Of a DNA stretch of 42,268 nucleotides, positions 4,994 to 41,983 are shown piece by piece. This DNA is from Epibacterium ulvae. GTDB lineage: Bacteria > Pseudomonadota > Alphaproteobacteria > Rhodobacterales > Rhodobacteraceae. The DNA lies in assembly GCF_018678075.1 (NCBI RefSeq), contig NZ_JAHHIR010000024.1, positions 1-42,268 of the forward strand. Direction: 5' to 3'. The first letter of the stretch is position 1. The number at the start of each line of letters is the position of its first letter. The notes under the pieces are model-generated. The model made no database searches, was not told where the DNA came from, and saw only the letters and a list, made by a program, of their open reading frames with translations. The position numbers and the translations under genes were made by a program.

Positions 4994-6213
4994 GATGCGG
5001 ACTTTCGATAGAGATGCACACCGCCGTAGATCGCCGAGCGATCGGTTTCAAACGCGGTTTGCGAGGCATCTGCGTCATAGGACCATTGATCCAGCGTTGC
5101 AGCCTGCACCCGGCCCGGCAGGATGTCGTCGGTGCCACCGGTGCGGAACAGCACCCGTGCGCCGGGTTTGGCGGTGCGGGTGATCTCGTCCCACAGCGCG
5201 TTGAGCTGCGCATCGGTCATCCAGTCCTGGGCGTCCAACAGAATATAGACCGTTTTCGACTGGTTCGGCGCCTGGGCCAGCACATCGGTGATCGAGCGGT
5301 TCCAGACCGTGGCACGCGCGGCTGCACTGCGCAACGCCTCAAAATTCTGCGGTTCGAGATAGGGCGGCACCGGACCGCTGCCGTCGGCCTTGTAAGCGCG
5401 GTTGGCGGCCTGCCAGGCAAAGTAATTCTCGGCGATGGGGAAGTCACAAAACAGCTTGCGGGTGCGTTCTTTTAGCACGGGGATGATGTCACCCCCGGCG
5501 TCGTCGGCCAGTTTGTCATATTGTGCGGGCGGGATCCCGAGGCCAAACAGCGAGGCACGGCGGCGGGCGAGGAATTTCACCAAACGCGTGTCATAAAGCG
5601 GCGCGATCTGGGTGTTGAAAAACGCCTCTTGCTCGGCCAGGGTCTTGGCCTCCAACAGTGGCTGGAAATCGACCCGCGTCACGCGGGCCAGCAGATGCAC
5701 GGCGCTTAGGAACCGGCCCAGCACGCCAAAGCGGTAAAATCCACGGGTAAACATGGAGATGCGCGATTTCAGCCCGTTGCGGCCACGCCAAAAGGCCTGC
5801 GCCTGCGCGTCCAGCTGTGGCAATACGTGGGTTTCCAGCAGGGCCCTGTTTTCACCCCGGTCCGCATGGCCAAAGATCGCGTAAAAGCTGTCGTAGTCCG
5901 GCACATGCGCGGCGGCGGCCAGTTTCAACCGGTTCAACTCAACATGCCAGGGTGACAGATCCACCGCGGTCAGCGAAGCAGGTTGGGTCGTCAGATAGGA
6001 CATCGCGTTGCAGCCGCCAGAGGCGATGCAGATGATGTGGTCGTCTTGGGTCAGCTGCAAGGCGGTCATGTCGCAGACCGGGTCTTCCCAGATTTGCGGA
6101 TAGACCAGACCACGAAACAGAAAGGCAAAGGCGCGTTCGGACAAAGTATCCAGAGAAAAAGACCGGTTTTCGTAAACCGCGTCTCCGATTGAGGTCGTAT
6201 GTGTCGCGCTCAT
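4990..6213 (-). CDS. btaA: BtaA, SAM:diacylglycerol 3-amino-3-carboxypropyl transferase
   Basis: This 407-residue DUF3419-family protein transfers the 3-amino-3-carboxypropyl group of S-adenosylmethionine to diacylglycerol, giving diacylglyceryl-homoserine, the first step of betaine-lipid (DGTS) synthesis. Recognisable family features are LVYPQIWEDPVCDMTAL in the N-terminal third, a SAM-binding IASGGCNAMSYL loop, AVDLSPWHVELNRLKLAA, and the C-terminal ARVLFRTGGTDDILPGR segment. The length is typical. It sits 12 bp downstream of plcP and overlaps btaB, forming one leftward operon. The diacylglycerol it uses would be supplied by the phospholipase encoded by plcP, so the three genes form a complete phosphorus-sparing lipid-exchange route. 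Confidence 0.92.
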   Translation of the reverse strand: MSATHTTSIGDAVYENRSFSLDTLSERAFAFLFRGLVYPQIWEDPVCDMTALQLTQDDHIICIASGGCNAMSYLTTQPASLTAVDLSPWHVELNRLKLAAAAHVPDYDSFYAIFGHADRGENRALLETHVLPQLDAQAQAFWRGRNGLKSRISMFTRGFYRFGVLGRFLSAVHLLARVTRVDFQPLLEAKTLAEQEAFFNTQIAPLYDTRLVKFLARRRASLFGLGIPPAQYDKLADDAGGDIIPVLKERTRKLFCDFPIAENYFAWQAANRAYKADGSGPVPPYLEPQNFEALRSAAARATVWNRSITDVLAQAPNQSKTVYILLDAQDWMTDAQLNALWDEITRTAKPGARVLFRTGGTDDILPGRVQAATLDQWSYDADASQTAFETDRSAIYGGVHLYRKSAS

Positions 6214-6225
6214 GCCTGCTCTTTT

Positions 6226-7035
6226 CTATTGGTTAACGGTGGTTTTTGTGTCGGCGCGCTTGCGCCGTTTTTGCCGCTTTTCCAGCAGCCGCAACCGGTT
6301 GTTGCGCGACTCCCAGTCGATCAAACGCAGATCGCCGTTGTCGTCCTCGACGATTGCGGTGCAGCTTTCGACCCAATCCCCGGTGTTTACATAGTGGATG
6401 TCGCCGATCTGGCGGATCGCTGCGTGGTGGATATGGCCGCAAATGACCCCGTCATAGCCGCGTTGGCGGGCGTCTTCTGACAGGGTTTCTTCGAATTTCC
6501 CGATGAAATTCACCGCCTGTTTGACCTGATGTTTGGCCCATTTCGACAGGGACCAATATTTGCGCGACCACAGGCCCCGCACCGAGTTGATCTTGGGGTT
6601 CAGCCAGATGAGCGCGGAATAGGCGCGGTCTCCGAAATAGGCGAGCCATTTGGCGTTGACGATGACCGTGTCGAATTGATCGCCATGGGTCACAAAGTAC
6701 CGCATCCCCTTGGCCGAGATGAATTCATCGTGGTCCCTGACCTCAATCCCTCCAAAATGGATGCCGGGAAAGCGGCGCATGACCTCATCATGATTGCCGG
6801 GAATGAACACCACACGGGTGCCTTGCCGGGCCTTTTCCAGGATGCACTGAATGACCGTGTTGTGCGAACTTGGCCAGTGCCAGCCACGTTGCAAGCGCCA
6901 TCCGTCCAGGATGTCGCCGACCAGATACAGCGTTTCGCACTGGTGCTTACCCAGAAAACCCACCAGCAGATCAGCGCGGCACCCTCGCGTTCCAAGATGG
7001 ACGTCAGAAATAAAAATTGCACGGTACGCTGTCAT
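6226..7035 (-). CDS. plcP: PlcP-type metallophosphoesterase (phospholipase C for lipid remodelling)
   Basis: This 269-residue calcineurin-like phosphoesterase has the full metal-binding set: D11-x-H13 (ISDVHLG), G40-D41, N81-H82-D (GNHDE), H117 (THGDQ) and H201-x-H203 (CGHIHH). It resembles LpxH, and many annotations call it UDP-2,3-diacylglucosamine diphosphatase. However, members of this subgroup next to betaine- or glyco-lipid synthesis genes are the PlcP phospholipases C, which degrade phospholipids to diacylglycerol during phosphate starvation in Roseobacters and rhizobia. Its position as first gene ahead of btaA and btaB strongly favours that role. The lysine/arginine-rich tail (KRQKRRKRAD) is a possible membrane-surface contact. 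A Pho-box-like sequence precedes it. Confidence 0.85.
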   Translation of the reverse strand: MTAYRAIFISDVHLGTRGCRADLLVGFLGKHQCETLYLVGDILDGWRLQRGWHWPSSHNTVIQCILEKARQGTRVVFIPGNHDEVMRRFPGIHFGGIEVRDHDEFISAKGMRYFVTHGDQFDTVIVNAKWLAYFGDRAYSALIWLNPKINSVRGLWSRKYWSLSKWAKHQVKQAVNFIGKFEETLSEDARQRGYDGVICGHIHHAAIRQIGDIHYVNTGDWVESCTAIVEDDNGDLRLIDWESRNNRLRLLEKRQKRRKRADTKTTVNQ

Positions 7036-26933: not shown

Positions 26934-27518
26934 TCAAGTTCTGAGCCTTCTTTCCTCCAACACCGGCTTGGATCCTACTCCCATCCTCACCAACGCACAC
27001 ACGTGTTATATTTACGCGCGATAATTTTTACAATGTCACATTCGACGCCTTCGGCAAAGCCGTTTAAGGTTCGACGCCCAGTTTTCATCGAAATCGCGCA
27101 GCTGTTCCTAGGGTATAGCCCCATCGCAGAGTTCTACAATCAGATCGGACAAATAGCGTCACATACCCGCAAAGCCATACTTCACTGCAGCTGGAGACTT
27201 CAAACGAGATCAAAACCTTAAAAACGGCTCACGACAGACACACAACCATGCCACCGGACTGCGCGCGCCCTTTCACAATCGGCGCTGATCGCTCCCCAGC
27301 CTCAGGGAGCAATTGGGGCCACAAAAAACCTCGTGAGGCTTGCAGAAAGCAGCATTCATGAGCCGCATTGCACCAAAGATGCTGATCCGGTTTCCAGAAA
27401 TTGATGATCCGCCCATCTGTGGGCTTGAGCTGCCACAAGACACCATGGCAGTGGGGACAAGCCCCCTGTAGCGTGCCATATGCGCGGCAACGGTCCGCCC
27501 AGACCAACGGAGACGAGT
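26934..27518. other. Intergenic stretch, 585 bp, with one operator and no convincing gene
   Basis: Apart from the operator at 27011-27024, this region holds only short weak frames. One is rightward (27033-27221, 62 codons; contains VFIEIAQLFLGYSPIAEFYNQ). One is leftward (27229-27507, 92 codons; contains CPHCHG). Neither matches a family I recognise. No RNA gene or terminator is obvious. It may be remnant sequence linked to the decayed sulfatase gene that follows. Confidence 0.5.
27011..27024. promoter_or_regulatory. Second copy of the polyol operator, upstream of the regulator gene
   Basis: TTTACGCGCGATAA matches the smoE-proximal palindrome TTTACGCGCGTAAA at 12 of 14 positions. It lies 78 bp ahead of the regulator's start codon, suggesting autoregulation. 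Confidence 0.6.
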
Positions 27519-29163
27519 TTGAATATCCCGTTCATCATATACGACCAACTGCGTTTTGACTATCTGAGCTGCGCGGGCCATCCGTCGTTACACACGCCAA
27601 ATTTTGATCGCGTCGCACACCGCGGGGTGCGGTTTACCATCGCCTATGTGCAATCGCCGATCTGCGGCGCGTCAAGGATAAGCTTTTACACCTGGCGCTA
27701 TGCCTCCTCTCATGGGGCGCAAAGGAACGGGTTCCCGCTCCGGGTCGAGGAGGCGACGCTCGGCGATCACCTGCGTGAACGTGGGATAGCCTGTTGGCTG
27801 TTGGGCAAGACCCATATGAAGGTCGGCGCCAAAGGCATGGAGCGCCCCTGGGCCTTGCCCCCGGCAGCACCATCGGCGCGCGGCAGGCGGACTGTGGTTT
27901 TGACCCCTGGGCCCGCGATGATGGTCTGTGGGGCGCCGGGCCGGATGGGTTTTATGACCAGAAACGCTCTCCCTATAACGAATACCTGAAGTCAAAAGGC
28001 TACGATGGGGACAACCCCCTGGGCCGATTATGCCAATGCAAGCGTCGAAGAGGGTGAGATCGCCAGCGGTTGGATGTTTGACAACGCCGACAAACCCGCA
28101 AACATCCGCGAAGAGGACAGCGAAACACCCTGGCTGACGTCTGAGGCCATCAAATTCGTGGACCAAGCCACGGGCCCACGGTGCGCGCATGTGTCCTTTA
28201 TCAAGCCGCACTGGCCCTATATTGCGCCTGCCCCCTATCACGACATGTATGGGGTCAAAGACATCAAACCGGTGCAACGCGCAGCCACCGAATTGCAAGA
28301 TCCCCACCCGGTTCTGGCCGCCTATCACGACACCCGCGTGGCCGATGCGTTTCAACAAGAAAGCGTCCGCGACAAGGTGATCCCCGCCTATATGGGGCTG
28401 ATCAAACAATGCGACGACCAGTTGGGACGTCTGTTGGATCATCTGGAGGCCAGCGGGCAGATGGGCGACACGATGATCGTCCTGACCTCTGATCACGGCG
28501 ATTATCTGGGCGATCACTGGCTGGGGGAGAAAAATTTCTTCCACGAAGCCTCGGGCAAGATTCCGATGATCGTCTGCGATCCACGCACCGAGGCTGACGC
28601 CACGCGCTGCACGACATGTGATGCTCTGGTCGACGCCATCGATTTGGCGGCCACTTTTGTTGATGTTGCAGGCGACACTCTGCCCGATCCTATCCTCGTA
28701 GGGCGCTCGCTTTTGCCTTGGCTGCACGGTGAGGATTCGCAGGACTGGCGCGATTATGTCATCAGCGAATACGATTATCCGCTACGCCGCGTGCGGCAGC
28801 GCTTGGTGTTTCCAACCGCGATGCGCGCATGTTCATGGTGTTTGATGGCCGCTGGAAACTGATCCATTTCGAAGGCGGCTTCCGGCCCATGTTGTTCGAC
28901 CTGAAAAACGACCCCGAGGAATTTACCGATCTTGGCGCGGACCCGCCCATAAAGATGAGATCGCGCGTATGTATCGCCATTTGTCCAAATGGGGGCTGCG
29001 CATGTCGCAACGGGTCACCATGTCTGATGACGATATCGCCGCCTCTCGCGGTCGCTCAGCCCGGCGCAGCATCCTGCCGTTTCTGGTCGATGGCAGCGAA
29101 GTGGACGCGGAATTAACGCAGACCTATCGCAGACCGGCACGCCAGATGCATTTCAAGGACTGA
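27519..29163 (+). pseudogene. Sulfatase/phosphonate-monoester-hydrolase-like gene with four frameshifts
   Basis: Five open pieces in shifting frames add up to a roughly 545-residue alkaline-phosphatase-superfamily hydrolase. They include IPFIIYDQLRFDYLSCAGHP, GKTHMK, RDDGLWGAGPDGFYDQKRSP, FIKPHWPYI, LTSDHGDYLGDHWLGEKNFFH, FMVFDGRWKLIHFEGGFRP and LRMSQRVT. The frame breaks lie at about 27845-27848 (two extra C), 28015-28019 (one extra C), 28776-28778 (one T missing) and 28941-28947 (one C missing). The active-site motif is also altered: C-G-A-S-R where C-x-P-S-R is expected, and W where the following FYTGRY has G. A TTG start with GGAG upstream fits. All breaks lie in short homopolymer runs, so sequencing error must be considered, but the altered motif argues for true decay. 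Confidence 0.85.
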
Positions 29164-29584: not shown

Positions 29585-29854
29585 TCAGGAAACGCTGGGG
29601 TTGGTTTTCTTGGCTGCAGCAGAAGCCTGTTCTGTCCACGTAAGGCGGATGTCCACGCTGCAGCGGCCGTCGGTTCTATCGGCTTTGATCATCAGGCTCA
29701 GCAATTTGTCCAACGGCAGGGTCAGCGCGTTGTCATCGTCGTTCAGCGTCAGCTCGCCCTTGCCGATGGCCTTGGTCAGCGCTTCCAAGAGCGCTTTGAC
29801 TGATTTTCTATCCTGCAAAGACTCGTGCAGAAACTTGCCATCTGGGTGATCCAT
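29585..29854 (-). CDS. Small amphi-Trp domain protein of the GAK cluster
   Basis: This 89-residue cytoplasmic protein has a charged N-terminal helix (LQDRKSVKALLEALTKAIGKG) followed by alternating strands: GELTLNDDDNALTLPLDK, then LSLMIKADR and CSVDIRLTWTEQ. The pattern of short amphipathic strands ending in a conserved W.E fits the amphi-Trp domain, which recurs in GAK gene clusters. It is the last gene of the leftward operon, 12 bp after the phosphatase gene. It has no catalytic residues I can see, so it may be the carrier, substrate or scaffold of the system; that is inference. The tail (ASAAAKKTNPSVS) is serine/threonine/lysine-rich and could be a modification target. Confidence 0.75.
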   Translation of the reverse strand: MDHPDGKFLHESLQDRKSVKALLEALTKAIGKGELTLNDDDNALTLPLDKLLSLMIKADRTDGRCSVDIRLTWTEQASAAAKKTNPSVS

Positions 29855-29866
29855 GATCCATCCGTT

Positions 29867-31210
29867 TTATCGCGCAAACAATTCGGGTTTGAAGTGTTTG
29901 GCCTTGGGGTAATCCACACTCAGACCAACTACGTCGCCACTTGGATAGATCAATGTGGCGCCAACGCCAATGCCTTGTAACCCTTCAAGCGCCCGCGAAG
30001 CGCGGTCCAAGGTGACGTCGCCTTCGAGGTGAAGCAGACCGTTCTTGGTCAAAATCCGCTGCCCTGCGTGATTGTTCACATGGCCCTGCACGACCATTTT
30101 GATGCCCATACGAAACAGTGCGTCTACGCCGTGGGAGGTCAGCTGCTTGTCGGTCCGACGGTATTTCGTGCGCACCATATTGGCCACTTCACCCGTGTAA
30201 AACCGGAACGGGCCCATATGGGCGTCTCGCAGGAACTTGCGGTTCACTGCGTCTGGGCCTTCCTCGGCCAACATCTGGCTCATGCGATCGCATAGTCCTG
30301 CGTGTACAAACAGCAGCGACCCGCTGCGTTTGACGGCTTTCATCTGCTGGAAGAACCAATTGTAGGCCCCCGTCTCATCCAGGAAAAGCCTGCGGCACTG
30401 CATGATCGCCGCATAGGTCTGCCGCATCGTCAGGCCGGCCCGTGCGATGGCTGCATCAAATCCTGCGACCTTTTCATCCATTTTGCAGAGTTCTTTTTGC
30501 ACGATTTCGGCCGACAAAAAGCCCCCTGCCTCTGCCGGAAACCGCTCAAACCAATCGTTATCCGGGAACAGTTTCGCGCGGCACGTCGCCTCATCCGGGA
30601 CGGAGGCCGTGATATCTGTCAGATCAAACCGGTTGCTGATTTCACACAAAAGCGGGATGGCTTTGCGCGCCATTCGGACAAACAGATGTTCCGTCAGAGA
30701 TGTGCGCGGCAGGTCCAACGCCGCTAAGGCCACGAACAAGCGCAGATCATGGTTGCCGGCCAGAAGATGGACGTCGGCATCCGTGGACAACAAAGCCCCG
30801 ATTGCATCCAGCAAGTCCAGATTGCTTGGCCCTTTGTCCAGGCAATCGCCGCCGATAACGATCTGAGCGCGGTGGCCAAAATCCGTCAGCTCAAATGCGC
30901 GGATGCCCAGTCCCGTTCGACGAATGGTGCCAGCCGCAACAAGTGAGCGCAAAAAGCCCTCGGCGTCGGCATGAGGGTCCGAGATAAAGACCACCGGACG
31001 CTCCGGCCACGCCCATGGCCCATGCGACGCAGCGGCGCGAATGCTGTTTTGCACGTTCAGCAGGCTGTTGCGGCTGCCGCTCGCGGAATGCGTCTGATCC
31101 AGCGGCCACACTTCGCAATCGGTTGGCAGGTGATGAAGTTCTGAAAACTCGTCAAACACGGTGGGGAGGAGGTTTTGGTGGCTGTCCAGCTGAGGTAATA
31201 TTTCGACCAC
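29867..31210 (-). CDS. PPP-type metallophosphatase (calcineurin-like) of the GAK cluster
   Basis: This 447-residue protein has the metal-binding motifs of serine/threonine phosphatases of the PPP superfamily: D78-x-H80 (ISDPHAD), GGDCLDKGPSN with D122, and AGNHD with N153-H154. C-terminal histidines follow in LLFVHAGLCDRM and VVQGHVNNHAG. The region between the GNHD motif and these histidines is longer than in minimal PPP enzymes. The gene starts with GTG, 12 bp after the histidine phosphatase, and is followed after 12 bp by the amphi-Trp gene. A natural role is to remove phosphate placed by the HprK-like or APH-like kinase of the same operon. A small-molecule substrate (for example a dinucleotide, as in ApaH) is also possible. 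Confidence 0.82.
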   Translation of the reverse strand: MVEILPQLDSHQNLLPTVFDEFSELHHLPTDCEVWPLDQTHSASGSRNSLLNVQNSIRAAASHGPWAWPERPVVFISDPHADAEGFLRSLVAAGTIRRTGLGIRAFELTDFGHRAQIVIGGDCLDKGPSNLDLLDAIGALLSTDADVHLLAGNHDLRLFVALAALDLPRTSLTEHLFVRMARKAIPLLCEISNRFDLTDITASVPDEATCRAKLFPDNDWFERFPAEAGGFLSAEIVQKELCKMDEKVAGFDAAIARAGLTMRQTYAAIMQCRRLFLDETGAYNWFFQQMKAVKRSGSLLFVHAGLCDRMSQMLAEEGPDAVNRKFLRDAHMGPFRFYTGEVANMVRTKYRRTDKQLTSHGVDALFRMGIKMVVQGHVNNHAGQRILTKNGLLHLEGDVTLDRASRALEGLQGIGVGATLIYPSGDVVGLSVDYPKAKHFKPELFAR

Positions 31211-31222
31211 CTATTCGGTCCC

Positions 31223-31921
31223 CTAATCGACTTCGTTTTCCGATCGTTTGCGGTGCTTCCAATCACCGGCATAGTGGGACCATGTACCCTGCGCACTGTA
31301 ACGGAACAGTAACGGTTTGGCGTGGAACATGCTGAGGCGCGGAATTTCTTCACGCGCAAGAAGGCCAAGTTTAAACGCTGCATGACGAAATGATGCGCCA
31401 TGCCCGAAAAACAGGGTCAAATCGGGGTTTGAACCGGTCTCAGTTTCATCCATGATACGTTGGATATACTGCGCGACACGGGTTCCAGCCTCCATCAGAG
31501 ACTCGGCCCCATGAAGCGGCAATCGGTAGTCGCTGTCAGATTTCCAGCCCCGCGGCGGCGCATCAACCCTTGGGTCTTCGCGCAAGACAGTTTCGATTTC
31601 CGTGAGCGTCAGGTTGGCAGCGCTGCCAACAGAACGTTCCGACAGGTCCGGCACCTGTGTGATGGATGCCCCCTGCCCTAACCCGCCTAGATTACCCAGC
31701 GCGACCTTGGCCGTCTGCCAGGCGCGCAACTGCAACGACGAGTGCACCTGCGGGTCCAACGTCCAGCCGTTTTCCTGTACAAAATCCGCGAGTTCCAAAC
31801 CGCAGGCCGCAGCCTGTTGCATACCTTCATCGGTCAAAGGATAGGGTTGCAACGCCGAAGGACACCCCGGTTTCTGATGGTAGGCCCCGTGACGGATGAA
31901 TGCTACGTATCTGTCCGTCAA
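31223..31921 (-). CDS. Histidine phosphatase superfamily protein of the GAK cluster
   Basis: This 232-residue protein opens with FIRHGAYH, giving the phosphoacceptor H11 in the R-H-G motif. It also has LTDEGMQQA, SSLQLRAWQTA (R of the second active-site pair) and FGHGASFRHAAF with the second catalytic histidine. This is the phosphoglycerate-mutase-like/SixA-like phosphatase fold. The start overlaps the stop of the HprK-like gene by 4 bp. Substrate unknown; SixA-type members act on phosphohistidine in proteins, others on small phosphates. Confidence 0.8.
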   Translation of the reverse strand: MTDRYVAFIRHGAYHQKPGCPSALQPYPLTDEGMQQAAACGLELADFVQENGWTLDPQVHSSLQLRAWQTAKVALGNLGGLGQGASITQVPDLSERSVGSAANLTLTEIETVLREDPRVDAPPRGWKSDSDYRLPLHGAESLMEAGTRVAQYIQRIMDETETGSNPDLTLFFGHGASFRHAAFKLGLLAREEIPRLSMFHAKPLLFRYSAQGTWSHYAGDWKHRKRSENEVD

Positions 31922-33021
31922 TTTTGCGCACCCTTGGCGGAGAACAGCGTCTGGCCAAATGCGGCCATTGCATCAAAATCCACCTTGCCGGTCACTTCCT
32001 TGACCCGAACGCCCGCCAAAGCTTGCAGGTAATCTGAGGCAATACAGGGTTCAAAATCCCGCAGGAATTCTTGGTTCGGTTTTTGATAGAAAGGACCGGC
32101 GCTTTTCATGATCGCGCTCAGAAGATCGGGGCGCTCTGCCAAATCAACCTCTACCAATTGTGTATCCGCCGCCGCATCACGGCTCCAGTTCAACACCCAA
32201 AAATCAGTGAGCGGCGCATCATATTGCACCCGGTCGGGGCCATAAATGTCCGCGACAATCAGGTCGTATTTTTCTTCGAGCTCCCACAGATCACCAGATG
32301 GCATCTCAGCAAGTTCTGCCAAGCGTTCCGTGGTGAGCATTCTATGCAAACGCGAATTGTGCAGGATCGTGCCCGGATTGATCCGTGGTTCTTTTGGAAT
32401 GCCAAGGGCCTTTGGAAACGGCTGCTCGGCTTGCACCAACAAACGATCATTGCTGACAAATGACACGCCGGGCATATCCATAAACCGCAGCATTGACGTT
32501 GATTTTCCGCCGCCGGACAGACCCGCAACCGCGAGGCTACGCGCTCCATTGGTGACGGCGGCGGCGTGACAAATCTGCCATCCCGCACACAGGCCTATGT
32601 TCAGAATTTGGGTGTTGAGGAAATTCACCACCTGATTTGAATGCGCGCCACAGGGACCAAATGCGACCACTGCATCCGTGGACTGCAAGAAGGTCACGCC
32701 GGTACGCTGCTTGTACACAAGACGACCGTCGTCGAGGTCGAAAATCGCGTCCTTCCGCCCTGTTTTTCCCGGTTCACGCGCCCAGTCGATCCAATCTGGC
32801 GGATCACGCAAAGCCTGCCCATCCAAGACTTCAACCGTTGCATCTGCCTCACCCGGAGCAACCAGCGCATAACGATAATACTGCTTCAGCTCTTCATAAA
32901 GCGGCGCGGCGCAGATCAGTTTTACCCGAATATGACCAACACCGATCCAAATCGGGTCGGACTTGGCCAGCACACTGCGATCAAGTTGCCCCAAGACGTC
33001 GGCACATGTCTGAACACTCAT
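31918..33021 (-). CDS. HprK-related kinase B of the GAK cluster
   Basis: This 367-residue P-loop kinase has Walker A GLSGGGKST at residues 167-175, preceded by the HprK-like ICHAAAVTNGARSLAVAG and followed by FVSNDRLLV, which takes the place of the HprK acidic pair. In HPr kinase/phosphatase this fold phosphorylates a serine on the carrier HPr. The present branch (HprK-related kinase B) lacks the HPr context and occurs with ATP-grasp, CofD-like and amphi-Trp genes. The 160 residues before the P-loop form a separate domain with GVGHIRVKLICAAPLYEELKQYYR that could recognise the target. It overlaps both neighbouring genes by 4 bp. The target is unknown; the amphi-Trp protein is one candidate. 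Confidence 0.82.
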   Translation of the reverse strand: MSVQTCADVLGQLDRSVLAKSDPIWIGVGHIRVKLICAAPLYEELKQYYRYALVAPGEADATVEVLDGQALRDPPDWIDWAREPGKTGRKDAIFDLDDGRLVYKQRTGVTFLQSTDAVVAFGPCGAHSNQVVNFLNTQILNIGLCAGWQICHAAAVTNGARSLAVAGLSGGGKSTSMLRFMDMPGVSFVSNDRLLVQAEQPFPKALGIPKEPRINPGTILHNSRLHRMLTTERLAELAEMPSGDLWELEEKYDLIVADIYGPDRVQYDAPLTDFWVLNWSRDAAADTQLVEVDLAERPDLLSAIMKSAGPFYQKPNQEFLRDFEPCIASDYLQALAGVRVKEVTGKVDFDAMAAFGQTLFSAKGAQN

Positions 33022-33899
33022 GTCGAAACCTTTTTGATCACGGCATCAGCCACCATTGCTGCGGCATCCACGCCGCAGCCTTCCTTGGCCCCTCTGAAGC
33101 CGCCAAAGGCCGACACTTCAAACACAATGGGTCCGGTTTCGGTCAAAGCGACATCGACAGTTGTAAAGGTCAGCCCAAACGGTTCCTGCGCCTTGCGCGC
33201 CAGTTTGATCAGCGCCGCATCCGGTTCAAATGGCGCATATTTTCCGCCGCTGTGGATGGTGGTGTTCCATGTGTCGGATCCCGAAACACGCGCATAGGTG
33301 CAGACGTAGTCCCCGTCCAGAAACACCATGCCCAGATCCTGACCGGACAGGTCCAGTTTCTGCTGGATGTACATCATCGGGTTTTCTTTGGCGAATGCGG
33401 CGATGGCGGCTTCGGCGTCGGTGCCATCTTCGATGATTTCCATGCCACGAGCCTTGGTCGAATAGAGCGGTTTGAAAACTGCGCTGCCAAAACGTTTGAC
33501 AGCATCGCGCGCCGCCGCGTGGTCTTCGGTGATCACGGTCGGTGGCATTGGCGCATCAGCTGCCCGCAAGGACACGGTACAGGCCAGGCGGTCGATCAGC
33601 CGAATAATCGCCTCGGGATTGCTGAACACACGCACGCCGCGCGCCTCAGCTATGCGCAGCAGCTCGAGCCGGTCTAAAACATCCGGGCTATAGGTCTCAT
33701 TGATTTTTTTGACGATCAACGCGTCATAGGTACAAAGGTCTTCCCCTGCGTACATGAGCTGCAGGGTTTCCGTGTCGAGCGACACCTTGGCCATATCAAT
33801 GACGGTGCGAAACCCGGTGCGCTCTTCGACAGCATCAGCAAGGGCTTCGGTTGACCATTTACCAGGCGTGCCAATTATTCCGATCCGCAAATCAGTCAA
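33018..33899 (-). CDS. RimK-like ATP-grasp ligase of the GAK cluster
   Basis: This 293-residue enzyme is of the ATP-grasp fold. The pre-ATP-grasp domain ends with the dispensable-helix signature FSNPEAIIRLIDR. The first ATP lysine is K143 in AVFKPLYSTKARGMEI, the second is in MMYIQQKLD, and the metal-binding end is FEVSAFGGFRG with E261. In RimK and D-Ala ligases the last motif is E-x-N. Here the N position is Ser (E-V-S), an unusual change seen directly in the sequence that may be a feature of this branch. The family makes amide or peptide bonds via an acyl phosphate, so it may join an amino acid or acid to a protein or small molecule. It overlaps its neighbours by 8 bp and 4 bp. Confidence 0.82.
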   Translation of the reverse strand: MTDLRIGIIGTPGKWSTEALADAVEERTGFRTVIDMAKVSLDTETLQLMYAGEDLCTYDALIVKKINETYSPDVLDRLELLRIAEARGVRVFSNPEAIIRLIDRLACTVSLRAADAPMPPTVITEDHAAARDAVKRFGSAVFKPLYSTKARGMEIIEDGTDAEAAIAAFAKENPMMYIQQKLDLSGQDLGMVFLDGDYVCTYARVSGSDTWNTTIHSGGKYAPFEPDAALIKLARKAQEPFGLTFTTVDVALTETGPIVFEVSAFGGFRGAKEGCGVDAAAMVADAVIKKVST

Positions 33900-35529
33900 T
33901 GAATAGCTCCTTGATGGGTAGTTTTAATCTGTGTTCGCCGCCTTGGGGACATGCCAAGGCGACTTCCAAAAGGTAGCGCGCACGTTCGAACATGCGCTGC
34001 GCGTGTGAATTGTCCAAAACGAACCGGGTCGAGGTGGCAAAAGATCGGGCCAGCCCCAAAGCCAGCCGGTATTCGAACGTTTTGTCATTTTGTGAGCGGG
34101 CGAATTTGCGAACCGTGGCGTGGAATTCAGATGCGACCAAGGCAACCCGACGCCGGATCAGCGGATCCTGAACCTGGAGCCGGTAGTTCGACACCATAAA
34201 GACAGAAACATCCTGCACGTAATCCATGGACCTGGACCGGTGCAGATCGATGAAATGCACTTTCTTTTCCTCAGAGTCATAAATCACGTTGTCGAGGTTG
34301 AAATCCCCGTGGATATGCACGGAAAACGGCGCAGGTAGGTCTTTTTCCCGCGCGTGTGCCTGCTCGACGAGATCCCCGAACTTGGGCAGCGACAACGCCC
34401 CAATACGCGATGCGCGGGATGCAAATTCGGGATGGACCCGCCAGATATCCTTCATCCGACGCGCCAATTGCTCCATTGACGCCATCTGGGCCGCCTCGCT
34501 GGTGCGGGTGCGTTTCCAGACATCGCGCAGCGTGCGGGACAGGGCCGTTTGCGCCTCGCTCAGCATCGCGTCGCTTTCATTCAGCAGAATATTCTCAAAA
34601 GTCTCGCCCTTGAGATACTCAATGAGCAGCGCCGCCGATTTGCCGCTCTTTTTGTAGGACAGGATCTTGGGCGCGAGGCCCGGATAGATCGAATGCCAGC
34701 TGCGCACACCCGCACGTTCTTCGCGCACTTTGTTCAGCTCTCCGTCTTTGAAAACGGCCGTGAAATCATCGCCGTATTCCGAACGCCCGCGCACACTGGA
34801 AATCGCGCTTCCGGACCGGGTTTCGGCAATGGGTTCCAGCTCAAGGCTTTCGCCGGTGATCTCCCCATCTGACAGCATGTCCCGCAATGCGAAATACCGA
34901 TCAAAGTGGACGGATTGCCCGATGTTCACCGACAAAATCGCCTCGCTGATACCCTGCAGCGCGTCGCCCATGCGGTGCACCTCATAGGCCGCAAGCAGCG
35001 CGTTGGCCAAATCCTCGGTGTGCTTGGTCTTGCTCATGTCGCGCGTGTAGGTGCGAAACAAACGATCGTAAATGTCATCTAACTTGGACTTGCCATGCCC
35101 GATCTCAATCGCTTTGGAGCTGTCTTGGGCCTCAAAGGCGGGCAAGATTTCCTTGATGCTTTTGCGCACCGATTTGATTGCTTTGGGATAGGCTTCATGG
35201 CGCAGCAACCCGGGATGGTGCACCTTTTCCGCATGTTCCAAACTGCGGCGCGACATACGGGCGATCAGATCCAGATTCCGCGCGGCATAGGCGCTGTTTT
35301 GCAGCAAAAGACGACGATTGGCCGAGACTTTCTTGCGCGTAAGCCCTTGGATACTCGCGCTTTGGACGCGGTTCCAAAGATTGTAGGAGTAACCTGCACG
35401 CAAAATGACCTTTTGTGCGACAGACGCGTCAGGGCATTCATAAAACCGCTGAAGATTGCTGAGCTGCCCATCCAGTTCAGCACACAAAAGACGCAGGTTT
35501 TCTTCCGCAGCGCGGGGCAGATCAACCAT
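33892..35529 (-). CDS. PhoU-like / APH-like kinase fusion of the GAK cluster
   Basis: The 545-residue protein has two parts. Residues about 1-215 are all-helical with PhoU-like repeats (RNLDLIARMSRRSLEHAEKV, and later AYEVHRMGDALQGISEAIL). Residues about 240-500 form a kinase of the aminoglycoside/choline phosphotransferase type. This part has AVFKDGELNKVREERAG and LIEYLKGETFENIL in the N-lobe, the catalytic loop H407-G-D409-F-N-L-D-N414 and metal-binding Asp428 in FIDLHRS. The catalytic residues are intact, so it should transfer phosphate to a small molecule or protein. The PhoU-like half suggests metal-cluster binding or phosphate sensing, which is inference. It overlaps the NUDIX gene and the ATP-grasp gene by 8 bp each. 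Confidence 0.78.
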   Translation of the reverse strand: MVDLPRAAEENLRLLCAELDGQLSNLQRFYECPDASVAQKVILRAGYSYNLWNRVQSASIQGLTRKKVSANRRLLLQNSAYAARNLDLIARMSRRSLEHAEKVHHPGLLRHEAYPKAIKSVRKSIKEILPAFEAQDSSKAIEIGHGKSKLDDIYDRLFRTYTRDMSKTKHTEDLANALLAAYEVHRMGDALQGISEAILSVNIGQSVHFDRYFALRDMLSDGEITGESLELEPIAETRSGSAISSVRGRSEYGDDFTAVFKDGELNKVREERAGVRSWHSIYPGLAPKILSYKKSGKSAALLIEYLKGETFENILLNESDAMLSEAQTALSRTLRDVWKRTRTSEAAQMASMEQLARRMKDIWRVHPEFASRASRIGALSLPKFGDLVEQAHAREKDLPAPFSVHIHGDFNLDNVIYDSEEKKVHFIDLHRSRSMDYVQDVSVFMVSNYRLQVQDPLIRRRVALVASEFHATVRKFARSQNDKTFEYRLALGLARSFATSTRFVLDNSHAQRMFERARYLLEVALACPQGGEHRLKLPIKELFID

Positions 35530-35983
35530 TTAAGACGCCTACGTATGTGGGTGCAGCTGTATCCGTCAAAACACGCACATAGGATGGTTTGAACAGATGA
35601 GCGTCCGAAGTCAAATCAGCCCAGATCGTGGCCGTTTGCGATGGGTCGGGATGTGGACCCACCTGCGGCACATACCCCTCGGGCAAGCTGCATTCAAACA
35701 GGAATTCAATCTGGTGGCGTAGCCCATCCCGTTTCACTTTTTGGACCTCGGCAACATGCAGCAATCCATGAACCGCAACCTCTGCTCCGATTTCCTCCGC
35801 GCATTCACGTCGCACACAGTCTTCCAGGGTTTCTCCAAGCTCTTGCTTGCCGCCCGGCAGGGTCAGATATTGTCCGCGCGCGGGGCGTTCTTTTAATTGC
35901 ACCAACAAGCTGTTGTCCCTTCGGATCACCGCCCGAGCCGTTGGGCGGATCGGATCGATAAATTTAGTCATTGTGTCATCCAT
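35522..35983 (-). CDS. NUDIX hydrolase of the GAK cluster
   Basis: This protein of about 153 residues carries a full NUDIX box: GGKQELGETLEDCVRRECAE continuing EIGAEV, with the REC-AEE-G core intact. It hydrolyses a nucleoside diphosphate linked to another group. An upstream in-frame start at 36136 would run into the divergent CofD-like gene and encodes unlikely sequence. The ATG at 35983 or the ATG at 35971 is preferred; neither has a strong ribosome-binding site. It is the first gene of the leftward GAK operon. Since CofD-type enzymes use GDP-activated donors, a NUDIX enzyme that removes or recycles such donors would fit the cluster. Confidence 0.83.
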   Translation of the reverse strand: MDDTMTKFIDPIRPTARAVIRRDNSLLVQLKERPARGQYLTLPGGKQELGETLEDCVRRECAEEIGAEVAVHGLLHVAEVQKVKRDGLRHQIEFLFECSLPEGYVPQVGPHPDPSQTATIWADLTSDAHLFKPSYVRVLTDTAAPTYVGVLNG

Positions 35984-36048
35984 CTGGTGATATACCCGTT
36001 GGAAAACGGAATTATTACAATGCCCCAAGGGGTCGGAGGCTTTTAACC
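35984..36048. promoter_or_regulatory. Divergent promoter gap between the NUDIX and CofD-like genes
   Basis: These 65 bp must hold the start signals for both arms of the GAK cluster. Leftward, TTGTAA (36015-36020) and GTATAT (35990-35995) with a 19-bp spacer are a weak candidate, and would give a very short leader. Rightward, the clear element is the GGAGG ribosome-binding site at 36035-36039. The compact gap implies coordinated expression. Confidence 0.4.
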
Positions 36049-37236
36049 ATGCCAGACCTGAAAATCGCCCGCAATGTGCATTTCCCGGATGCATTGAGGA
36101 TCGCGCGTGCCAAAAGCCTGCCAAACCTGGGGCCAAGGCTACTGTTCTTCAGCGGCGGTTCAGCGTTGAATGGGATATCACGGCGGCTGAAATATTACAC
36201 GCATAACTCTTGCCACCTGATCACCCCGTTTGACAGCGGCGGCAGCTCGCAAGTGTTGCGCGAAGCCTTTGACATGCCGGCCGTCGGTGATCTGCGCTCC
36301 CGGTTGATGGCCCTTGCGGATGAGACGGAACTGGGACAGCCGGATATTTTCCAGTTGTTCACTTATCGATTTTCGAAAGAGGCCAAAAACCGCGACCTTG
36401 AGAATGAGTTCGCATCGGTGCTGTCTGGAGAACATGATTTGATGCACGCAGTGTCGCAGCCGATGCGCAGTCTGATCCTGTCGCAGCTGCGTGTCTTTGC
36501 GCAGCACAAACCGGATGATTTCTGCCTCAAGGGTGCAAGCCTTGGAAACCTGATCCTTGCGGGCGGCTATCTAGCGAATGAGCGCGCCTTGGAGCCGGTG
36601 CTGTTTTTGATGTCGAAAATGGTTGCCGTGCAAGGAACCGTGCGCTCCATTGTGGATCGCAATCTCGACCTTGGGGCGCGTTTGGCAGACGGCACGACAA
36701 TTGTTGGCCAGCGCCAAATCACCGGCAAGGAAGTCGCGCCCATCTCCTCTCCGATCGAGGATCTGTATTTCGTTCAAAACGGAGAGGCGATCGCGGGCAA
36801 AGACGTCAAGCTTCCAAAGCGAAACCGAAAACATATCGAACACGCCGACCTGATCTGCTACCCGCCGGGCAGCCTTTATACCAGCGTCATCGCCAATCTT
36901 CTGCCGCGTGAAACAGGGCGAACGATTGCGCGGCAAGGCGTTCCAAAAGTCTACATTCCCAGCCTTGGCCAAGACCCGGAATGTGTGGGAATGGATCTGT
37001 CGGACCGGGTTACGGCCTTGTTGAAAACACTGTGCTTGGATGCCGGTGCAGACTGCCGCGCGAGCGATCTGATTTCCGCCGTGATCTGCGATCAGGACGC
37101 CGTCGATGCAAGCGAACTGAAAGACATGTCCAAGACCCACAACATTCCCTATGTCGCCCTGCCCCTGCGCCACAAAAGTGAGATGGAAAAATACAACCCC
37201 GAGCGGGTGTGCGACGCGCTTTTGTCCTTGATCTGA
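36049..37236 (+). CDS. CofD/YvcK-like protein of the GAK cluster
   Basis: This 395-residue protein has the glycine-rich start of the CofD fold (LLFFSGGSALNGISRRLK), ITPFDSGGSSQVLREAFDMP with the conserved D-S-G-G-S-S, AVGDLRSRLMALAD, LKGASLGNLILAGGYL, and DLICYPPGSLYTSVIANLL. CofD moves a phospho-lactyl-type group from a GDP-linked donor to the F420 precursor. YvcK relatives bind UDP-sugars or act in cell-wall control. Nothing else here suggests F420 synthesis, so a different acceptor is likely. It starts at ATG 36049, with GGAGG nine bases before; an upstream frame to 35971 is not needed. It is divergent from the other GAK genes. Confidence 0.84.
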   Translation: MPDLKIARNVHFPDALRIARAKSLPNLGPRLLFFSGGSALNGISRRLKYYTHNSCHLITPFDSGGSSQVLREAFDMPAVGDLRSRLMALADETELGQPDIFQLFTYRFSKEAKNRDLENEFASVLSGEHDLMHAVSQPMRSLILSQLRVFAQHKPDDFCLKGASLGNLILAGGYLANERALEPVLFLMSKMVAVQGTVRSIVDRNLDLGARLADGTTIVGQRQITGKEVAPISSPIEDLYFVQNGEAIAGKDVKLPKRNRKHIEHADLICYPPGSLYTSVIANLLPRETGRTIARQGVPKVYIPSLGQDPECVGMDLSDRVTALLKTLCLDAGADCRASDLISAVICDQDAVDASELKDMSKTHNIPYVALPLRHKSEMEKYNPERVCDALLSLI

Positions 37237-37381: not shown

Positions 37382-38350
37382 ATGAAATCCCTTCTGACAG
37401 CCGCAGCCTTTGCCTGCGTCGCCTCTGCAAGCTTTGCGGATACGCTGACCCTTTATACGTCCCAGCCGAACGCGGACGCACAAAAGACCGTGGATGCTTT
37501 CATGGCTGCCAACCCCGGCACCGAAGTTGAATGGGTGCGCGACGGCACAACAAAACTGATGGCGCGTCTGCGGGCCGAAATCGAAGCCGGCAACCCGCAG
37601 CCTGACGTATTGCTGATCGCTGATACCGTAACTTTGGAAGGCATGGCCCAAGACGGTCTGCTGATCGCATATCAATCTCCAGAAGCTGCGGCTTATGATC
37701 CTGCTCTGTTTAGCGCGGAAGGGTTCTACCACTCTACCAAGCTGATCACCACGGGCATCGTCTACAACAGCGGCGCAGAAAAAGCGCCTGCCTCCTGGGC
37801 CGATCTGAAAGACGAAGCGCTGAAGGGTCAAATCGCAATGCCGTCGCCGCTCTATTCTGGTGCTGCATTGATCCACCTGGCGACGCTGACAGGCGACGAA
37901 ACCCTGGGTTGGGAGTACTACTCCGAGTTGGCCACGAACGAAGCCCGCGCCCAAGGCGGCAATGGCGGCACCTTCAAAGCGGTTGCGGCAGGCGAAAAGC
38001 CCTATGGCATGGTTGTCGACTTCCTGGCGATCCGCAACAAAGCAGAAGGCTCCCCGGTCGAATTCGTCTTCCCCGAAGAAGGCGTATCCTATGTGACCGA
38101 GCCTGTTGCGATCATGTCTTCGGCCAAAAACGTGGAAAGCGCGCAAAAGTTCGTTGATTTCGTACTGAGCCAAGCGGGCCAGGATCTGGTGCTCGACATG
38201 GGTTACATCCCAGCGCGCAACGACATGGGCGTGCCTGCTGGCTTCCCTGCGCGCGAAAACATCAAGCTGATGGCATTTGACCCGGCGGTTGCGCTGGAAA
38301 ACGCCGAAGCAAACAAAGCGAAATTCGCTGACCTCTTTGGCGCCAACTAA
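37382..38350 (+). CDS. ABC transporter substrate-binding protein, iron(III)/phosphonate type
   Basis: This 322-residue protein has a signal peptide (MKSLLTAAAFACVASASFA). Its mature part starts DTLTLYTSQPNADAQKTVDAF, the opening of FbpA/AfuA/PhnS-like periplasmic binding proteins. Other family segments are ARLRAEIEAGNPQPDVLLIAD, KAPASWADLKDEALKGQIAMPSP and GQDLVLDMGYIPAR. The tyrosine pair of iron-binding FbpA is not securely located, so the ligand could be Fe(III), 2-aminoethylphosphonate or a sugar/glycerol phosphate. A GGAG ribosome-binding site precedes the ATG. Its stop overlaps the permease start (TAATG). It lies 145 bp after the CofD-like gene. Confidence 0.83.
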   Translation: MKSLLTAAAFACVASASFADTLTLYTSQPNADAQKTVDAFMAANPGTEVEWVRDGTTKLMARLRAEIEAGNPQPDVLLIADTVTLEGMAQDGLLIAYQSPEAAAYDPALFSAEGFYHSTKLITTGIVYNSGAEKAPASWADLKDEALKGQIAMPSPLYSGAALIHLATLTGDETLGWEYYSELATNEARAQGGNGGTFKAVAAGEKPYGMVVDFLAIRNKAEGSPVEFVFPEEGVSYVTEPVAIMSSAKNVESAQKFVDFVLSQAGQDLVLDMGYIPARNDMGVPAGFPARENIKLMAFDPAVALENAEANKAKFADLFGAN

Positions 38351-40053
38351 TGACGCCGCTTAAAGGTTTTGGAAGCAGCCGGTCCGAGGGTCGGCTGCTT
38401 TCTATAGTGCTCCTCATTGCGATCACGCTGACCTTGACGCCTGTGGTACGCCTGTTTGTCGAAGGCGTGACGGACGGCGACCAGCTCAGCCTGAACCTTA
38501 TGCAAGAGGTGCTGCGCGACGACACAACCCGCACCGCATTGCTGCATTCCCTGATCACCGCCGGATTAGGCACGCTGGTGTCAGTCGTGATTGGCGGGGC
38601 CTTTGCGTTTCTGGTGGCGCTTACGGATCTGCGGGCCAAAGCGGCCTTGGTCTTTTGTCTTATGATCCCGATGATGATCCCTCCGCAGATCACCGCCCTG
38701 TCGTGGACGCAGATCATGGGTCCGTCCTCTGTTCTGTTGAAAACGCTGGGCATGGCACCGCCGCTTGGCGCGCCGCAGCCGCTTTATTCCCCTCAGGGTA
38801 TCATTTTGCTGTTGGGCATTCAGCATACATCGATCATTTTTCTGACGCTGCGCGCAGGACTGCGTGCCATCCCGCAAGACGTGGTTGAGGCCGCGCGTAT
38901 CAGCGGTGCCAAGGGGCTGCGGGTCTGGTGGCAGATCATCGTGCCGCTGTGCCTGCCCAGTCTGGCGGCCGGCATCGCCATCACCTTTGTGACCGCTTTG
39001 GGGAACTTTGGCATTCCGGCAATGCTTGGCATCCCGGCGGGTTATGTGACCCTGCCGACGCTGATTTATCAAAAACTGGCCGGGCTCGGCACCAACGTCC
39101 TGGCAGAGGTCGCCGTATTAGCCATATTGATCGGCGCCGTCGCCATCTGCGGCATTCTCATCCAACGGTTCTTTCAGTCTCGCCAACGGGTGCATCTGGT
39201 CGGCTCCACCTCACGCCCCCTTGCGATCCCGCTGGGTCCGGCGCGGCTGGCAACTGAATGCAGCTTGTGGCTGGTGGTCGCCGCCATCTTAGTGCTGCCC
39301 ATGTTGGGTCTTCTTGCGACATCCCTGGTGCCGGCCTATGGCGTTCCGTTGCGATTGGATACGATGACCTTGTCCTCATGGCATGAAGCCCTGTTCCGCC
39401 AACCCGCCACCCGCCGCGCATTTGTGAATTCCTTCAACCTGTCATTTGGCGCAGCACTGGCGTTGATCGCAATCTGCCTGCCCCTGGCCTGGTTGATGGA
39501 GCGTAATCCCACCCGATTGGGCCGCCTGTTCGATGGGCTTGTGGATCTGCCCTATGCGTTGCCCGGCGTGGTGCTGGCCATTGCCATGATCCTGTTGTTG
39601 ATCAATCTCCCGTTCACAGAGGCGACGCTTTATGGGACGATTTGGATCATCTTTCTGGCCTATCTTGCGCGGTTCATGACCGTCATGTTCCGCCCCATTC
39701 AAGCCAGCATCCGCCAGTTGGATCCGGCAATGAACGAGGCCGCGCAATCCGTCGGGGCCTCCCTGTTTCAGCGCCTGCGCTCCATCATTTTACCGCTTTC
39801 GGCCCCTGCGGCGGTCGCCGGTGCGATCCTGGTGTTTCTGACCGCCTTTAACGAGCTGACCGTATCCGCCCTGTTGTGGTCGTCGGGGACCGAAACCCTG
39901 GGTGTGATGATCTTTAACCTTGATGACAGTGGCGAAACCGTCATGGCCTCGGCGCTGGCGATGACCATTGTGCTGGTTGTCATGGTCTTGATGGGGGCAA
40001 TCCAGCTTGCGGCCCGTCACCTTCCAAAAGGAGTTGTCCCGTGGCAGACATAA
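38350..40053 (+). CDS. Fused double-domain ABC permease, FbpB type
   Basis: The 567-residue inner-membrane protein consists of two permease halves of about 280 residues. Each has its own coupling loop: VVEAARISGAKGLRVWWQII in the first half and NEAAQSVGASLFQRLRSIIL in the second. About 12 membrane spans are expected. Such tandem permeases are typical of the Fe(III)/2-aminoethylphosphonate/thiamine branch of importers, supporting the family call made from the binding protein. Its 3' end overlaps the ATPase gene by 13 bp. Confidence 0.9.
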   Translation: MTPLKGFGSSRSEGRLLSIVLLIAITLTLTPVVRLFVEGVTDGDQLSLNLMQEVLRDDTTRTALLHSLITAGLGTLVSVVIGGAFAFLVALTDLRAKAALVFCLMIPMMIPPQITALSWTQIMGPSSVLLKTLGMAPPLGAPQPLYSPQGIILLLGIQHTSIIFLTLRAGLRAIPQDVVEAARISGAKGLRVWWQIIVPLCLPSLAAGIAITFVTALGNFGIPAMLGIPAGYVTLPTLIYQKLAGLGTNVLAEVAVLAILIGAVAICGILIQRFFQSRQRVHLVGSTSRPLAIPLGPARLATECSLWLVVAAILVLPMLGLLATSLVPAYGVPLRLDTMTLSSWHEALFRQPATRRAFVNSFNLSFGAALALIAICLPLAWLMERNPTRLGRLFDGLVDLPYALPGVVLAIAMILLLINLPFTEATLYGTIWIIFLAYLARFMTVMFRPIQASIRQLDPAMNEAAQSVGASLFQRLRSIILPLSAPAAVAGAILVFLTAFNELTVSALLWSSGTETLGVMIFNLDDSGETVMASALAMTIVLVVMVLMGAIQLAARHLPKGVVPWQT

Positions 40054-41084
40054 ATTTGCGCGCCGTTGAAAAACACTTTGACGGCGTCCCTGCCCTGCAT
40101 GCCATTTCCGCCACGTTTCAAGACGGTGAGTTCGTGGCCCTGCTGGGTCCGTCCGGATGCGGCAAGTCAACACTGCTGCGTTTGATCGCCGGGTTTGAGA
40201 TGCCTTCGGCAGGCGCGATCGCAATTGGAGCGACTGAGATGTCCAATGGTCAGACCGGACATAATGTTCCCCCTGAGGAACGCAATATCGGCTTTGTGTT
40301 CCAGTCCTACGCGTTGTGGCCGCATATGACCGTGCGTCGAAATGTGTCCTATCCGCTGGAAGTGCGACGAACGAACAAGGCAACCTTGCGCGAACAGACC
40401 GACGCCGCGCTCAGCGCGACCAGTTTGATACCCTATGCAGACCGCATGCCATCCGAACTGTCCGGCGGTCAGCGCCAGCGCGTTGCCCTTGCGCGCTGTC
40501 TGGTCTCCAACCCCAATGCGGTGCTGCTTGATGAACCGTTGGCAAATCTGGACGTGGCGTTGCGTGCTTCGATGCAAGACGTGTTCTCGGATTTCCACCG
40601 CCGCACCGGCGCGACGATGGTCTATGTGACCCATGATCAGAGCGAAGCCATGGCGATGGCAGATCGTATCGCGGTAATGTCAGAAGGGCGCATCGTTCAA
40701 TTTGACACGCCACAAGCGCTCTATGCACAGCCGCGCAGCCGTTTTGTGGCTGGGTTTGTCGGTGAAGGCACCGTTTTGCCGATTTCAGAAGTCGCGCGAG
40801 ACGACGCGTGCGTCACCGCCAAACTGTTTGGAGCCAAAATCGCCATCCAGACCGACAGCCCGAACCCGGATCTGATCTGCCTGCGGCCTGAAAACATAGA
40901 GATCTCTGAGACGGGTGACATACGTGCTATCGTACAGCGCAGCACCTATCTGGGTGGGCGCTATCGTCTGACACTTGAGGCATCTTCCGGTGCGCAACTG
41001 ATCGCAGAAAGCCGCGCGCATTTTCCAGTTGGGACACAGCTGGGCGTCTCGGTTCATGCGCCTTGGGCGTTTGCTGAGACGTAA
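40041..41084 (+). CDS. ABC transporter ATPase, FbpC/PotA type
   Basis: This 347-residue ATPase shows Walker [11 protein letters not shown]-loop FVFQSYALWPHMTV, signature [13 protein letters not shown], Walker B VLLDEPLANLDVAL and H-switch YVTHDQSEAMAMAD. A C-terminal TOBE-like region (ICLRPENIEI, VQRSTYLGGRYRLTLE) follows. It powers the preceding permease. It starts with GTG inside the permease gene, so the two are translationally coupled. The dedicated operon position suggests that it does not serve other importers. Confidence 0.91.
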   Translation: MADINLRAVEKHFDGVPALHAISATFQDGEFVALLGPSGCGKSTLLRLIAGFEMPSAGAIAIGATEMSNGQTGHNVPPEERNIGFVFQSYALWPHMTVRRNVSYPLEVRRTNKATLREQTDAALSATSLIPYADRMPSELSGGQRQRVALARCLVSNPNAVLLDEPLANLDVALRASMQDVFSDFHRRTGATMVYVTHDQSEAMAMADRIAVMSEGRIVQFDTPQALYAQPRSRFVAGFVGEGTVLPISEVARDDACVTAKLFGAKIAIQTDSPNPDLICLRPENIEISETGDIRAIVQRSTYLGGRYRLTLEASSGAQLIAESRAHFPVGTQLGVSVHAPWAFAET

Positions 41085-41163: not shown

Positions 41164-41983
41164 CTATTCAGCCAAAACTTCAACTCGTACGTTGATAAAG
41201 TCGATACCGTTGTCCGGCGTGTCGGGCGCTTTGGGCGATCCAAAGGTCTTCCTGTTCACGTGGAGGGCCAGCATGCCGAAGTTATTGGCTTCGCTGCCTT
41301 GATCGACGGTGCTGAAATGGCTGACCTCTTGCCCATCCGCACTCAACGCGCCTGAGACTTCGATACCTTCGGCCAGTTTGGTAACCTTCAAAGTGCCGGT
41401 GTAGGATTTGCCCGCTTCAAACTGATAAGCTTCTCCACCGCCATCAAGACGCGCGTAGTGATGTACAGCCGACAAGATCAAAGTTCTCGCTTGGCGGACG
41501 ATCCGTGCGCAAGTTGAACAGCCCTTCGCCCAACCGTTCGGTCAGGACAGGTTCCGCCGGTTTCTCAACCGATGTGCCGCAGCCTTAAGCCGCAATTTCT
41601 TCAACACTGTTCCAGCTGTTGCTGCCATTGCCGTTGCCTTCAATCCGAACGTAACGGACCTGAACGGCATCAAACTCAAAGGGTTCGAAATCAAGCGTTG
41701 TGCCTGTCGTCTCCCGCGCAGGCACAGTTGTTTCAAAATTTGTACCGTCGGTTGAAGCCTGAATGGAGAACGCGGACTTGCGGCTGTCTCCCTTGTACCA
41801 AGTGACACCAGGCAATTTTAGCGCCTGCGTAGCCACTAGATCCAGCGTCAGATGTTTTGGAGTGCCCATAGATTCATTGGACCAACGCGATTCGGAATCA
41901 AGAACCCCATCGATGGAATTCTCTGGACCGCGTGTCGTCATATTGCCCATCATCCGTTGCCGAAATGATTGTCAGCTACCCGG
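41164..41983 (-). pseudogene. Remnant of a polysaccharide-active or adhesive protein with F5/8 type C domain
   Basis: Leftward, three frames join into one protein piece. At 41950-41983 TIISATDDG leads, after a one-base shift in a G run, into the frame at 41585-41953. That frame has NMTTRGPENSIDGVL, ESRWSNES, KGDSRKSAFSIQASTDGTNFE and VQVRYVRIEGNGNGSNSWNS, a typical discoidin/CBM32-like fold. A TAA at 41585-41587 replaces an expected Tyr codon (EEIAA-stop-GCG). Reading through continues as GTSVEKPAEPVLTERLGEGL and then, after another shift near 41478, into VHHYARLDGGGEAYQFEAGK and FGMLALHVNRKTFGSPKAPD. The N-terminal part is missing. The parent could have been an alginate- or other polysaccharide-degrading enzyme. 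Confidence 0.7.

Follow-up and report, generated by a model that had tools for sequence, protein, structure and literature searches.

The window analysed here, a 42,268-nucleotide stretch of Epibacterium ulvae DNA (contig NZ_JAHHIR010000024.1), contains a cluster of eight genes that is a real member of the GAK system, a catalogued and unexplained gene set (NCBIfam TIGR04354, TIGR04355, TIGR04356 and TIGR04357). In the loci that we examined this system has an invariant core of four genes, encoding a PhoU-like domain fused to an APH-type kinase (A), an ATP-grasp ligase (G), an HprK-related kinase (K) and a small amphi-Trp protein (W), and the remaining genes are optional: a PPP-type metallophosphoesterase (P), a histidine phosphatase (H), a NUDIX hydrolase (N), a CofD-like protein (C) and a ninth gene, a SixA-NUDIX fusion (S). 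Tentatively, and at somewhat less than an even chance, we propose that these proteins form a small-molecule pathway and not a protein-tag circuit.

Core and optional genes of the GAK cluster

A preliminary description of the window had assigned the eight proteins to families and named the cluster, and both are borne out, since G, C, K and W exceed the curated NCBIfam cut-offs and Pfam accounts for the rest, with matches to APH and PhoU in A, NUDIX, His_Phos_1 and Metallophos, besides RimK and CofD (the Pfam search gave no match for K). All eight open reading frames (ORFs) are open, at the positions given in that description (Table 1). There is no difference in kind from the NCBIfam GAK system, where A, P and H carry generic names.

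Gene content was compared in a set of 100 loci, 94 of them distinct after 6 duplicates were dropped and 74 of these untruncated after removal of 20 with short flanks; 80 of the 100 represent the best of 493 relatives and lean to Rhodobacterales. All loci were selected by G, so its own presence in 74/74 is true by construction. A, K and W are each present in 74/74 as well, and the other genes in fewer (P in 68, H in 67, C in 45, N in 45 and S in 30). Even in a locus with a reshuffled gene order (GHPAKSW, L109) the core is retained, and at least 95% of the aligned rows preserve the catalytic stretches of A, G and K.

We also searched a phylum sample of 398 genomes and a family sample of 149 genomes, both including the window's genome. 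G was detected at E 1e-60 or better in 14/398 phylum genomes (13 above the cut-off; in the fourteenth, G033, the gene is truncated by the end of a contig) and in 7/149 family genomes. Besides the window, the phylum sample gave 13 loci (L022–L034), two of which (L027 and L034) are cut in the core by contig ends; A, G, K and W are all found in the 11 others. A occurs in 13/398 genomes, all within the 14 with G, the fourteenth being G033, whose locus is cut by the contig end. P occurs in 15/398 genomes, 13 of which have G; the other two, G140 and G184, are incompletely assembled genomes (completeness 87 and 84, respectively) from a genus with cluster-bearing members, and G184 has K-S-H-P-W on one 3.9-kb contig. 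Amphi-Trp proteins were found in 12/14 genomes with G and in 9/384 others, one of them G184 (Fisher p 9e-16). The co-occurrence that the preliminary description expected across genomes is thus observed, with A, K and W in every untruncated locus and A in 13/13 genomes always together with G. Since in this sample A is confined to genomes with G, and P nearly so, both look dedicated to the GAK cluster, a link concealed by the generic names that they have in databases. C was not found in 10/20 cluster genomes (9/19 among those at least 90% complete) and is therefore accessory.

The cluster had been called complete with eight genes and, in fact, all eight are present; nevertheless, the associated ninth gene S lies on another contig of the window's genome (L184, 8356–9342, minus strand), next to genes read as urease genes. 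In many gammaproteobacteria S sits between K and H, and in some Rhodobacterales it adjoins C. The SixA motif of S in the window's genome is CHG, not RHG, and RHG is also missing in 8/9 Rhodobacterales S members with a visible motif, so the SixA domain may be inactive there; RHG is kept in most of the gammaproteobacterial SixA domains listed.

The phosphatase pair

H and P behave as a pair: of the 74 untruncated loci, 67 have both, 6 have neither and 1 lacks only H. On a tree of A, G and K, which was built quickly and has several long branches, at least 5 changes are needed for P and at least 6 for H, indicating that the joint loss was repeated. In 5/6 genomes whose loci miss both, H and P were not found elsewhere either (the sixth, that of L061, lay outside the search), and weak PPP matches (37–49 bits) are in place at L055, L058 and L061. 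Since H and P were lost together with the core retained, the pair is dispensable. This, together with the patchy presence of C, argues against the closed modification and demodification circuit that had been suggested for the cluster. S is present in the locus in 5/6 cases of joint absence and may compensate for the missing H and P.

The amphi-Trp protein

In 86/86 cluster W proteins only Phe8, Gly33 and Trp73 are invariant, and thus none of the invariant positions has a nucleophilic side chain. Nevertheless, we noticed a near-invariant motif close to the N-terminus, F8-x-H10-x-S12-L-Q-D, in which His10 and Ser12 are each kept in 84/86 proteins (Ser12 is Ala in L022 and L023, His10 is Tyr in L022 and L094). 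The His and Ser of this HxS motif are absent in 8/8 amphi-Trp proteins from genomes without a detected cluster, and the motif therefore belongs to the GAK system. The structure model of W has one helix and four strands and gave no clear match to the PDB (68 of 73 references listed in the fold alignment). The last residue and the tail length vary among the 86 proteins, with no conserved last residue.

The idea that the amphi-Trp protein carries a tag does not stand as it had been put, since His10 and Ser12 are each replaced in some proteins and nothing else nucleophilic is invariant. K in L022, L023 and L094 keeps the P-loop lysine, H152 and D192, and a single obligatory phospho-acceptor is thus unlikely. 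A narrowed form of this idea is a protein-modification circuit, in which W would be a small target resembling a phosphocarrier or HPr; His10 or Ser12 would be phosphorylated by K (and A), G would add amino acids, and H, P and SixA would dephosphorylate. The strict presence of W and its cluster-specific motif speak for it, as do the known protein substrates of HprK and SixA and the RHG of most gammaproteobacterial SixA domains. Moreover, L022, whose W has neither His10 nor Ser12, also lacks H and has S169A in the P-loop of K, in keeping with loss of the target in this locus, and this favours a modification lost in some lineages; L023 keeps both H and S169. Weighed against the replacements, the dispensable phosphatases and the absence of an invariant acceptor, we regard such a circuit as rather unlikely, although ahead of the other alternatives discussed below. 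For W itself, a binding role, a modification lost in some lineages, a modification of His10 or Ser12 in most lineages and a tag at the chain end are all possible.

Relatives of the enzymes

Apart from its own model, the best score of G is with MptN (140.4, cut-off 350), the tetrahydromethanopterin:glutamate ligase; rimK_fam gives 96.4 (cut-off 143.4) and LysX 79 (cut-off 276), and G is also similar to CofF. The similarity to the MptN, RimK and LysX ligases extends over most of the length of G, whereas the scores are far below the family cut-offs. Solved structures related to G down to E 0.01 number 12, namely RimK/LysX-type proteins, two other ATP-grasp proteins (5i47 and 7drm) and cyanophycin synthase. 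Judged from these similarities, G is most likely an amide ligase.

K has the P-loop catalytic domain of HPr kinase/phosphorylase and aligns with both this kinase and PEPCK, with the P-loop, His and Asp kept. Its structure model, folded from an alignment with 60 of the 72 references listed, aligns with PEPCK over residues 2–367 and with HprK only over 147–367, including the longer HprK chains 1ko7 and 1knx, so that among the matches listed PEPCK, but not HprK, covers the N-terminal half. In a hand alignment in which H152 is placed on the PEPCK metal-binding His, position 133 of K is Asn where PEPCK has Lys. Among NCBIfam models, H is similar to those of phosphoglycerate mutase and alpha-ribazole phosphatase.

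The second-best model of C is YvcK/UPF0052, not CofD proper, and its five PDB matches include UPF0052 proteins. C nevertheless belongs to the CofD superfamily, which, together with the similarity of G to MptN and CofF, could suggest an F420-like cofactor made by phosphodiester transfer (C) followed by glutamylation (G), and one genome, G158, has both C and CofE. CofE was not found in 9/10 genomes with C, the window's included, and with C itself not found in half of the cluster genomes and nearer to YvcK/UPF0052 we consider this cofactor highly improbable.

Among solved structures, the NUDIX domain of S best matches the diphosphoinositol polyphosphate phosphohydrolases (DIPPs; 8.5e-12). This raises the possibility of a pyrophosphoryl or nucleotide messenger, a bacterial counterpart of the logic of PPIP5K (ATP-grasp plus histidine phosphatase) and DIPP (NUDIX), to which the weak similarity of P to ApaH and the PhoU domain of A could be added. 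The window also contains a DUF3419 gene beside a metallophosphoesterase gene, which we take to be a BtaA/PlcP pair of phosphate-starvation lipid genes, but these are more than 22 kb from the cluster. No inositol phosphate kinase is among the 12 solved relatives of G, and the DIPP-like part is not core (S and N in 30 and 45 of the 74 loci), making such a messenger improbable.

A small-molecule pathway as the preferred reading

Our preference for a small-molecule pathway is founded on the nearest described relatives of the enzymes, which mostly act on small molecules (MptN for G, APH for A, YvcK for C, DIPP for S, and those of H), on the full-length alignment of K with PEPCK, and on the lack of an invariant nucleophile or a conserved last residue in W. 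A and K would phosphorylate a small compound with a carboxylate or hydroxyl group, to which G would join an amino acid as an amide, glutamate being the default guess. W, indispensable but not itself catalytic, would bind the intermediate or keep the enzymes together, and H and P as a pair, N, S and the YvcK-type C would contribute optional trimming, recycling or activation steps. The substrate class, the order of the steps and the role of W are what we infer from these relationships. In a more specific form, which we regard as rather unlikely, A-G-K-W would be a biosynthetic module of a new kind, built around a dedicated amphi-Trp protein that would offer a small molecule to the two kinases and the ligase, yielding an undescribed phosphorylated amino-acid conjugate (a cofactor, signal or osmolyte of marine proteobacteria) whose level would be set by the detachable phosphatase pair.

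The LysW-type carrier-protein pathway offers a comparison, as it also combines an ATP-grasp enzyme, a kinase and a small protein, the latter with a conserved C-terminal attachment residue. W differs from LysW in having neither a conserved last residue nor an invariant nucleophilic side chain.

Several observations weigh against a small-molecule pathway. The relatives of G include RimK and LysX, enzymes that act on proteins or work with a carrier protein, and HprK phosphorylates a protein. The Arg of the DxR and HRGG stretches of RimK is not kept in G, making glutamate as its amino acid a guess. The PEPCK alignments of K have root-mean-square deviations of 4–5 Å, and a likeness of fold shows no function. 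The near-invariance of HxS and its absence outside the cluster are what a modification site would show, and a loose [PLI]x[VI] tail, present in 57/86 W proteins, could serve for attachment or docking. Finally, neither a substrate, a gene neighbour nor a phenotype pointed to a specific compound, and no conserved neighbours beyond the cluster genes were found in the loci compared.

Known status and distribution

The role of the system had been described as unreported, in agreement with our literature searches, in which no paper on the role of the GAK system surfaced, most subscription papers being beyond reach. Passage searches of one ATP-grasp paper (PMC4431377) gave no mention of HprK, CofD, amphi or PhoU, and those of another (PMC8939145) none of HprK, CofD, GAK or amphi-Trp. 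NCBIfam is therefore the source for the name GAK system. The literature searched contained none of the following, which are added here: a core of four genes, two families (A and P) that look dedicated to the cluster, S as a ninth gene, the repeated loss of H and P together, the resemblance of the architecture of K to that of PEPCK, and the HxS motif that is specific to the W proteins of the cluster. A conserved gene set for which no role was found in print may hold an unrecognised metabolite or signal; the division into core and accessory genes singles out four key genes, and the HxS motif offers a residue-level handle on the protein-modification idea.

According to the record titles, the carriers are distant, mostly marine proteobacteria. 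Versions from Deltaproteobacteria, and a domain named XXXCH, may also belong to the system. The cluster ATP-grasp gene was found on plasmids in 5/72,556 records (PLSDB/RefSeq); a Qingshengfaniella plasmid carries all eight genes in identical order and a Tritonibacter plasmid has six of the eight, the CofD-like and NUDIX genes being missing. In the tree, members from Tritonibacter, Phaeobacter and Roseibium are scattered over several parts. Taken with the plasmid copies, this suggests that the cluster probably moves between lineages. One locus (L084) comes from a metagenome-assembled genome titled as a Halobacteria archaeon; its ATP-grasp protein has 66% identity to that of the window and its cluster is near the proteobacterial ones, for which reason it may be a contaminant contig.

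Gene organization and neighbouring genes

The minus-strand genes are ordered N, A, G, K, H, P, W and tightly packed, with overlaps of 4–8 bases or gaps of 12 bases, and C is divergent, about 65 bases from the probable start of N (Table 1). In a PADLOC search for known anti-phage defence models at E 1e-5, 7/8 proteins of the cluster had no match and the NUDIX protein matched the candidate PDC-S07 (40 bits).

Table 1. Genes of the GAK cluster and other features of the window.
Feature	Position	Strand	Evidence
W, amphi-Trp domain protein, 89 aa	29585..29854	-	TIGR04354 58.2 bits (cut-off 31); PF20068 30.1 (cut-off 27); motif and W73 as in the text
P, PPP/calcineurin-like metallophosphoesterase, 447 aa	29867..31210	-	PF00149 27.2 bits (cut-off 21.5); SDPHAD, GGDCLDKG, GNHD
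H, histidine phosphatase, 232 aa	31223..31921	-	PF00300 (His_Phos_1) 58.9 bits; RHG and GHGA stretches
K, HprK-related kinase B, 367 aa	31918..33021	-	HprK_rel_B 307 bits (cut-off 200); P-loop GLSGGGKST, H152, D192
G, GAK ATP-grasp, RimK/MptN-like amide ligase family, 293 aa	33018..33899	-	TIGR04356 (grasp_GAK) 454 bits (cut-off 300)
A, PhoU-like domain fused to APH-type kinase, 545 aa	33892..35529	-	PF01636 44.7 bits, PF01895 27.8 bits; HGDFNLDN, FIDLHR
N, NUDIX hydrolase	ORF 35522..36136; probable start codon 35983 or 35971	-	PF00293 53 bits; Nudix box legible
C, GAK CofD-like (YvcK/UPF0052-like)	ORF 35971..37236; probable start ATG 36049	+	TIGR04357 (CofD_rel_GAK) 471 bits (cut-off 340)
DUF3419 gene beside metallophosphoesterase gene	4990-7035	-	
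Sulfatase pieces	27480-29116 (pieces 27480-27989 and 28005-28862)	+	PF00884; different frames
ABC transporter	37382-41084	+	PhnS2/PhnU2 models, below cut-off
F5/8 type C domain ORF and other-frame ORF	41164-41953 (ORFs 41585-41953 and 41164-41481)	-	no Pfam match for 41164-41481
Presumed transposase start, contig end	42130-42254	+	no Pfam match for the listed ORF

The cluster is adjoined by an ABC transporter resembling 2-aminoethylphosphonate importers, whose binding protein occurs in 2/100 cluster loci. The two sulfatase pieces are in different frames, and this gene looks broken or carries a sequencing error. The F5/8 type C domain ORF and the ORF in another frame close to it are perhaps one disrupted gene, and the end of the contig reads like what we take to be the start of an IS110-type transposase.

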